Assembly: GCA_963169215.1 (NCBI GenBank) | Contig: CAUJEE010000003.1 | Location: 1-43,659, forward strand | DNA: 43,659 bases | Source: Actinomycetota bacterium | GTDB taxonomy: Bacteria > Actinomycetota > Acidimicrobiia > Acidimicrobiales > Ilumatobacteraceae | Direction of reading: 5' to 3' | Shown here: piece after piece, positions 5,506 to 7,823 of the stretch | Layout of the letters: every line of letters begins with the position of its first letter | How positions within the stretch are numbered: the stretch's first letter is position 1 | Made by a program: the position numbers and the translations under genes | Notes under the pieces: model-generated | The model's input: the letters and a program-made list of their open reading frames with translations, nothing else | What the model was told of the DNA's origin: nothing | The model's database searches: none

Positions 5506-5576
5506 TCCGGGGTCGTTCAATGGTAGGACTGCGGGTTTTGGTCCCGTCTATAGGGGTTCGAATCCTCTCCCCGGAA
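5506..5576 (+). tRNA. tRNA-Gln (anticodon TTG)
   Basis: Acceptor TCCGGGG/CCCCGGA, D-arm GTTC...GGAC, anticodon stem GCGGG-TTTTGGT-CCCGT (TTG), T-arm AGGGG-TTCGAAT-CCTCT, discriminator A; no encoded CCA. Confidence 0.93.
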
Positions 5577-5665
5577 CTCACCGCCTGCACCCGCTGCCGG
5601 CGCCCGCAGCCGCCGACACCACCCGACACCGTGCGTCCCGTCGGCCGACGCGCTAGAACGACACC

Positions 5666-6763
5666 ATGACCGTTTCCGCGATCGTGCTGGCGGCAGGCGA
5701 AGGCACCCGCATGCGCTCGGCGCGGCCCAAGCCGCTGCACCTCATCTGCGGGCGGCCGATGGTGATGCACGTGATCCACGCGCTCGAGCACGTGCAGCCC
5801 GAGCGCACCGTCGTCGTCGTCGGTCACGGCGCCGAGCGGGTCACCAAGAAGGTGCAGGAGCAGGCACCAGACTGGGCCAACGTCACGTTCATGGAGCAGA
5901 ACGTGCAGCGCGGCACGGGCGACGCGGCGATGGTGGGCCTCGGCGCATTGCCCGGCGACGATCTCGACGACACCTCCACGGTGGTGGTGCTTCCCGGCGA
6001 CGCGCCGTTGCTGCAGCCGCACACGGTGGAGGAGCTGATCGACGCGCACGAGTCGCACGAGTACGCCGCCACCCTGGTCACCTCCGAGCTCGACGACCCG
6101 ACGGGCTACGGGCGCATCGTGCGCGCCCCCGCCAAGCGCGGCGATTCGCGCCTGCTGCGCATCGTCGAACAGCGCGACGCAAGCCCCGAGGAGCTGGCGA
6201 TCAAGGAGGTGTGCACCAGCATCTACGCCTTCCGCCGCGACCTGCTCGGCCCGGCGCTGCGCCGCCTGGTGCCCGACAACGCGCAGGGCGAGTACTACCT
6301 CACCGACGTCGTCGCCTCGCTGGCGGCGATGGGTCATCGCGTCGGCTCGGTGCCCGCGCCGGCAGCCGAGACGCAGGGCGTGAACGATCGCTGGCAATTG
6401 GCGCTGGCCGAGCGCGAGCTGCGCGCCCGCACAAACCGCCGGTGGCTGCTCAACGGGGTGACGATGCTCGACCCGCGTCAGACGTTCGTCGATGTCACCG
6501 TGCGGCTCGGCCGCGATGTCACCCTCTATCCGGGCACCATCCTGCAGGGCGCCACCTCTGTCGGCGACGGGTGCGAGATCGGGCCCGACACGCGGCTGTG
6601 CGACTGCACCGTCGGCGACGGGGCACGCGTCGAACACACCGTCGGCAACGAGGCCGAGGTCGGGCCGGGCGCGCATGTCGGTCCCTTCGCCCACCTGCCC
6701 GCCGGCAGCGCGGTTGTTGCCGGGCTGGTCACCGGCGCCTTCTACACTGCCCCCGGGGGCTGA
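5666..6763 (+). CDS. glmU: UDP-GlcNAc pyrophosphorylase (GlmU N-terminal uridyltransferase with truncated left-handed beta-helix domain)
   Basis: MTVSAIVLAAGEGTRMRSARPKPLHLICGRPM nucleotidyltransferase signature; LbH repeats VTLYPGTILQGATSVGDGCEIGPDTRL; protein ends ...VGPFAHLPAGSAVVAGLVTGAFYTAPGG* at 365 aa. Confidence 0.9.
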   Translation: MTVSAIVLAAGEGTRMRSARPKPLHLICGRPMVMHVIHALEHVQPERTVVVVGHGAERVTKKVQEQAPDWANVTFMEQNVQRGTGDAAMVGLGALPGDDLDDTSTVVVLPGDAPLLQPHTVEELIDAHESHEYAATLVTSELDDPTGYGRIVRAPAKRGDSRLLRIVEQRDASPEELAIKEVCTSIYAFRRDLLGPALRRLVPDNAQGEYYLTDVVASLAAMGHRVGSVPAPAAETQGVNDRWQLALAERELRARTNRRWLLNGVTMLDPRQTFVDVTVRLGRDVTLYPGTILQGATSVGDGCEIGPDTRLCDCTVGDGARVEHTVGNEAEVGPGAHVGPFAHLPAGSAVVAGLVTGAFYTAPGG

Positions 6764-6833
6764 AGCCGCCGGGCCGCGACAGCTGCTCGGCAACACGGCC
6801 GCCACACAACACGATCGGAGCAGCGAACAGCCA

Positions 6834-7823
6834 ATGGAAAAGGTCACCACCAAGCGGATGGCGCTCTACTCGGGGCGCACCCATCCGGCGCTCGCCCGCG
6901 AGGTGGCCGAACACCTGGGGATCGAACTGGGCAACCCCAACCTGGTGCAGTTCGCCAACGGCGAGATCCGCGCCCGCTTCGGGGAGAGCATCCGCGGCGA
7001 CGACGTGTTCGTCATGCAGACCCACTGCGGACACGATGCGCAGAGCATCAACGACTCGATCATGGAACAGCTGATCATGATCGATGCCGCTTACCGCGCC
7101 TCGGCCAAGCGCATCACCGCGGTGTGCCCCTTCTACGGCTACGCCCGCCAGGATCGCAAGGCCGAGGGACGCGAGCCGATCACCGCCCGCCTGGTCGCCG
7201 ACCTGTTCAAGACCGCCGGGGCCAAGCGGATGGTCTCCATCGACCTGCACAGCGGGCAGATCCAGGGCTTCTTCGACGGTCCGGTCGATCACCTCACGGC
7301 CACTCCGGTGCTCGAGAACTACGTGCGCCAGCACGCCCAGGAGCCGGTGATCGTCGCCCCCGACGCGGGGCGGATCAAGGTCGCCGAGCGCATGGCGCAA
7401 CACCTCAGCGACCGTGGTTCCGACCTCGCGTTCATCTACAAGCGCCGCCCGAAGGGCACCACCAACATCGCCGAGGCGCGCGAGGTGATGGGCGACGTCG
7501 AGGGGCGGCTGTGCATCCTCACCGACGACATGATCGACTCCGGTGGAACGATCTGCTCGGCGGCCGAGGTGCTGAAGGCGCGCGGCGCCACGGAAGTATG
7601 GGCGATGGCCACTCACGCCGTGCTGTCAGGGCCGGCGATCGAGCGGTTGGGGAAGTCGCTGATCAGCAGGGTCGTCCTCACCAACACGCTGCCGATCCCG
7701 GCGGAGAAGATGAGCCCCAAGATCGAGGTGTTGTCGATCGCGCCGCTCATCGCCGACGCGCTGAACGCAGTGTTCGACGACGCCAGCGTCAGCGAGATCT
7801 TCGGCGGCGAGAACCAAGCCTGA
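6834..7823 (+). CDS. prs: Ribose-phosphate pyrophosphokinase
   Basis: MEKVTTKRMALYSGRTHPALAREVAEHLGIELG...FANGEIRARFGESIRGDDVFVMQ...YGYARQDRKAEGREPITARL...LTDDMIDSGGTI PRPP-binding motif. Internal ATG of track ORF 6492..7823. Confidence 0.95.
   Translation: MEKVTTKRMALYSGRTHPALAREVAEHLGIELGNPNLVQFANGEIRARFGESIRGDDVFVMQTHCGHDAQSINDSIMEQLIMIDAAYRASAKRITAVCPFYGYARQDRKAEGREPITARLVADLFKTAGAKRMVSIDLHSGQIQGFFDGPVDHLTATPVLENYVRQHAQEPVIVAPDAGRIKVAERMAQHLSDRGSDLAFIYKRRPKGTTNIAEAREVMGDVEGRLCILTDDMIDSGGTICSAAEVLKARGATEVWAMATHAVLSGPAIERLGKSLISRVVLTNTLPIPAEKMSPKIEVLSIAPLIADALNAVFDDASVSEIFGGENQA

Follow-up and report, generated by a model that had tools for sequence, protein, structure and literature searches.

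Sequence comparisons establish that GlmU lost its acetyltransferase half no later than the last common ancestor of the Acidimicrobiales, and that the shortened form has persisted ever since. We consider it probable, with moderate confidence, that the short GlmU has been monofunctional since that ancestor and that a GNAT of ~145 amino acids, the best candidate, carries out the missing acetylation.

The shortened glmU gene

The window is a 43,659-nucleotide stretch of Ilumatobacteraceae DNA (assembly GCA_963169215.1, contig CAUJEE010000003.1). Its glmU ORF occupies positions 5666–6763 of the forward strand, has an ATG start and a TGA stop, and encodes 365 amino acids with the C-terminal end ...VGPFAHLPAGSAVVAGLVTGAFYTAPGG*. 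The gene lies between a tRNA-Gln (TTG; 5506–5577) and prs, encoding ribose-phosphate diphosphokinase (6834–7823), both on the forward strand. The prs start is 70 nt past the glmU stop codon, the gap given in an earlier, sequence-only reading of this DNA. The span of 5666–6830 in that reading runs on into the intergenic DNA beyond the gene, whose last position is 6763.

The identity of the product was examined by profile and PDB alignments. The window GlmU matches the GlmU model TIGR01173 over positions 2–344 of 452. Its score of 335.8 bits falls short of the curated full-length cut-off of 366.85 bits, in agreement with the earlier statement that the protein is truncated. The alignment to M. 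tuberculosis GlmU from the PDB covers residues 4–360 with 271–273 bits. The N-terminal uridyltransferase (nucleotidyltransferase) domain of bifunctional GlmU is present at approximately 5675–6376 on the forward strand (Pfam PF12804/PF00483, sequence, and PDB alignment), and its LAAGEGTRM...PK motif is intact. The kept part of the left-handed beta-helix (LbH) spans approximately 6449–6745, with PF00132 matched at residues 279–310 and the remainder placed by alignment to GlmU. The window GlmU does not have the full C-terminal LbH acetyltransferase domain or its catalytic residues, the model match stopping at 344. The window gene is a predicted monofunctional GlcNAc-1-phosphate uridyltransferase with part of the LbH.

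The sequence-only reading had GlmU stop just before its acetyltransferase active site. The catalytic region is indeed missing, but the boundary is not that clean, because the Arg of the GPF.YLRPG stretch, itself an acetyltransferase-site residue, is already Pro345 (codon at 6698–6700). This LRPG column, which we take to be R333 of E. coli GlmU, an acetyltransferase-site residue, is P, A, G, S, or T in 28 of 28 aligned order GlmUs compared to R in 14 of 14 outgroup proteins. The part missing from the order GlmUs contains the His, Tyr, Asn, and Lys positions that are invariant in the outgroups. The stop codon (6761–6763) is directly preceded by a conserved new C terminus, TGAFYTAPGG, seen in the alignment of relatives. 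The short GlmU thus has the uridyltransferase domain of bifunctional GlmU (TIGR01173; E. coli, M. tuberculosis) and its initial LbH coils, whereas it is without model positions 345–452, including the acetyltransferase site, and has lost the Arg333 column as well.

Distribution of the truncation in the Acidimicrobiales

The same GlmU end recurs in the genus and family of the window genome with the conserved new C terminus TGAFYTA, and all same-genus genomes with an intact GlmU match share it. In the order draw, 161 of 198 Acidimicrobiales genomes match the GlmU model at a threshold of 1e-20, at which the weakest matches may be other nucleotidyltransferases, and none is full-length. Four of the 161 matches reach the TIGR01173 cut-off score; these also end at 344. 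In the class draw (119 genomes), order GlmUs end near position 344, apart from one contig or gene fragment that ends earlier, and 82 of the 89 genomes from other orders score as full-length. Of the remaining seven, one has its match at the edge of a contig, one has it divided between two contigs, and five gave no hit at 1e-40. In the phylum draw, 215 of 230 genomes outside the order have a GlmU above the cut-off. The truncation is therefore conserved in relatives, which are without a full-length GlmU in the genus, the family, and the order.

The order-wide distribution and the loss of the Arg333 column indicate that the truncation is ancestral and maintained and is no sequencing error. Conservation of this end throughout the order, the single-contig genomes G025, G032, and G038 included, rules out an indel error, and the earlier judgment that this is no simple frameshift holds. 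An error of sequencing or assembly, or a pseudogene confined to one strain, has almost no chance of explaining the short GlmU: the window does come from a draft genome of 249 contigs, but the end is shared throughout the order and by every same-genus genome whose match is intact, the new C terminus is conserved, and the relatives already contradict it.

Further reduction was found in family f134. GlmU in four of its genomes (L293–L296) is a bare uridyltransferase domain of ~245 amino acids from the nucleotide-binding motif on, without the beta-helix, whereas some of the helix survives in a fifth member. The loss of the Arg column, the missing catalytic columns, and the reduction in f134 therefore point to a short GlmU that is old, maintained, monofunctional, and still shrinking in some lineages.

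Three other observations were made on GlmU. G015, G019, G023, and G126 and about 35 of the 198 order genomes have no GlmU match; GlmM is present where checked, and the candidate GNAT is present in most. Families f105, f111, and f129 also contain members without GlmU. A search with the eukaryotic-type UAP1 model (PF01704) for such members hit none of 15 genomes, but the controls were silent as well, and the negative carries no weight. The short GlmUs of two order members, L299 (G435) and L301 (G403), depart from the conserved uridyltransferase motifs (LAAGSSSR; LPADMPLL), which suggests decay or changed function. Outside the order, GlmU matches in family f55 of the same phylum (G184, G211, G263, G292, G321, G341, and G370) are at 1e-100 to 1e-117, compared to 1e-158 or better in their kin, and an independent shortening is possible.

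A candidate GNAT for the acetylation step

Because the short GlmU is without the acetyltransferase half, the pathway implies that a separate acetyl-CoA-dependent enzyme would be required for UDP-GlcNAc. Profile and six-frame searches of the contigs of the window genome found no second or full-length glmU. None of the three outcomes that the sequence-only reading had set as refuting (a full-length second glmU, an indel that restores the C terminus, or relatives with a full-length GlmU) was observed. The six-frame search gave only two matches to the GlmU acetyltransferase part elsewhere in this genome. The match on contig C85 is a serine-acetyltransferase-like protein adjoining a cysteine-synthase-like gene, and the match on C37 is an LbH protein inside a polysaccharide-type locus; both matches are weak. 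No stand-alone GlmU-type LbH acetyltransferase was detected in 79 order genomes, where there were just generic hexapeptide matches, the best at 1e-12.

All PF00583 GNATs were collected from six order members and two outgroups, eight genomes in total, and grouped by reciprocal best hits. Just one group contained all six order genomes and neither outgroup, a GNAT of ~145 amino acids with the motifs IPTG.RAWIEDVVVD, ARG.GVG, DLTSRPSR, and TNVYR. The copy in the window genome is at G000:C147:2550-2987. In the class draw, this GNAT is found in 30 of 30 order genomes at E 2e-55 or better and at comparable strength in 2 of 89 others. In the phylum draw, it is in 17 of 17 order genomes and at comparable strength in 1 of 225 genomes outside the class (G266). 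The order draw gave 192 of 198 genomes and 151 of the 153 of good quality. Four of the six order genomes with no GNAT hit are under 90% complete; G507, which is 99% complete, has a short GlmU and no GNAT hit. Carriers include genomes of 1.5–1.8 Mb. The coupling of the two genes is not strict, since some order members without any GlmU retain the candidate GNAT. The sequence-only reading expected a separate acetyltransferase, or an alternative UDP-GlcNAc route, encoded elsewhere, and the search led to a specific candidate whose distribution matches.

The genomic neighborhood of the GNAT is conserved and holds PAC2-like, Nudix, GlnD, GlnK/AmtB, or GroEL-like genes, identities read from the sequences. 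No hexosamine genes were near the GNAT in the neighborhoods examined. A tree of 56 GNAT sequences nests the two class-outgroup copies inside the order on a long branch with moderate support, which fits a later transfer. The named carriers are Acidimicrobiales (Ilumatobacteraceae, Aquihabitans, Candidatus Microthrix, and others). Three public MAG records titled Bifidobacterium breve (L213, L215, and L235) also carry the Acidimicrobiales GNAT; L235, the one placed on the tree, groups with Ilumatobacteraceae, and the titles are probably mislabelled. One stem branch carries both the domain loss and the presence of the GNAT, so their association amounts to a single event, a point against the GNAT as the replacement.

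The T. brucei GNA1 is a glucosamine-6-phosphate N-acetyltransferase (EC 2.3.1.4). An AlphaFold2 model of the candidate GNAT has a confident GNAT fold (pLDDT 95.7), and a Foldseek search of the PDB ranks 3fb3 first (TM 0.77–0.79, 27% identity). Entry 3fb3 is T. brucei Tb11.01.2886, which is TbGNA1 (PMC4559419, PMC4964394). The GNA1 of Cryptosporidium (C. parvum; 6yug) is at Foldseek rank 23. GNA1 tops the Foldseek ranking by a small margin over other GNATs and is second or third by profile. The PF00583 match scores 59.2 bits, and the acetyl-CoA P-loop is present, with R87 and G92 invariant and G88 and G90 near-invariant. None of the NCBIfam models reaches its cut-off on the candidate, and no equivalog fits. 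With margins this narrow and every NCBIfam score under its cut-off, the fold supports, and cannot prove, a glucosamine-phosphate substrate.

The candidate shares size class, fold, the IED motif, and the P-loop with eukaryotic GNA1 (T. brucei 3fb3/3i3g and C. parvum 6yug). It differs in being bacterial, in a sequence similarity at the general GNAT level, and in having a substrate that is predicted only. In Apicomplexa, a lineage without a recognizable GNA1 was shown to rely on a GNAT family of separate origin for the acetylation (PMC5838249, Cova et al. 2018), a precedent for such a takeover. That family belongs to eukaryotic parasites and has biochemical proof with GlcN-6-P as the substrate. 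Together, the distribution and the modeled fold make a strong case for the candidate GNAT as the putative replacement acetyltransferase.

Proposed route to UDP-GlcNAc and its alternatives

The partner enzymes were examined in the same genomes. GlmM was found in 18 of 18 genomes checked, and its GEQSGH motif is kept alike in order members and outgroups; an altered sugar-binding motif was looked for in GlmM and not seen. A GlmS-like gene follows glmM in 16 of 16 neighborhoods where the contig continues. No conserved GNAT candidate adjoins glmM/glmS, where RimI-like genes were the only ones found. Many Acidimicrobiia have a GlmS-like protein of ~1,120–1,200 amino acids instead of ~610, well below the glmS cut-off. 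The long gene adjoins glmM (for example, L060:11480-14866 and L073:5926-9429), and the protein co-occurs with both short and full-length GlmU.

In the proposed route, GlmS would form GlcN-6-P and GlmM, with its canonical motif, would convert it to GlcN-1-P. The candidate GNAT may then acetylate GlcN-1-P, or it may act on GlcN-6-P as GNA1 does. The short GlmU would uridylylate GlcNAc-1-P to give UDP-GlcNAc. What the GNAT acetylates, where it acts in the pathway, and in which order the steps run are all predicted.

The best surviving alternative is that another enzyme compensates for the truncation, from another superfamily, from the GNATs outside PF00583, or an LbH protein diverged beyond detection, and that the order-specific GNAT has an unrelated job. 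We regard this as unlikely, yet it deserves weight: the GNAT screen covered the PF00583 members of eight genomes only, GNAT substrates are very varied, the GNA1 fold match leads narrowly, and the GNAT persists where GlmU is gone. Against it are the lack of a detectable GlmU-type acetyltransferase in the 79 order genomes and the near-universal occurrence of the GNAT in the order, genomes of 1.5–1.8 Mb included, with near absence elsewhere in the phylum. A GNA1-like GNAT that replaces the lost domain remains the reading we prefer, and a eukaryote-like order of steps can be put forward tentatively, as a doubtful extension of it. The GNAT would acetylate GlcN-6-P first and GlmM would then act on GlcNAc-6-P, in a bacterial version of the GNA1 pathway that feeds peptidoglycan; GlmU would be a bare uridyltransferase, shortened further or lost in several lineages.

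De novo acetylation might also be unneeded, either through GlcNAc salvage or because the short GlmU still acetylates. We judge this very improbable. Salvage would have to be a dependence of the whole order, autotrophs such as Acidimicrobium included, which grow in mineral medium, and an acetylating short GlmU is at odds with the absent catalytic His, Tyr, Asn, and Lys region and the replaced Arg333. Still more improbable is that the extended GlmS-like protein carries the acetylation step: it adjoins glmM and is about 500 amino acids above the usual length, but it also occurs in G062, which has a full-length GlmU, order members G072 and G107 pair a short GlmU with an ordinary 613-residue GlmS, and its recognized domains are SIS and GATase only, so it was rejected on a distribution that does not match the short GlmU.

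GlmU is usually regarded as a conserved, bifunctional bacterial enzyme and an antibacterial target. No prior paper on an order-wide GlmU loss or a GNAT replacement was found in the open full-text literature, a coverage that most subscription journals fall outside; PMC6113628 has nothing on the cell walls of Acidimicrobiales. An entire order of environmental actinobacteria has given up one of the two activities of GlmU. If the candidate GNAT is the replacement, annotation would gain a named gene for the missing step throughout the order, and a bacterial lineage would have taken up the eukaryotic type of amino-sugar acetylation.
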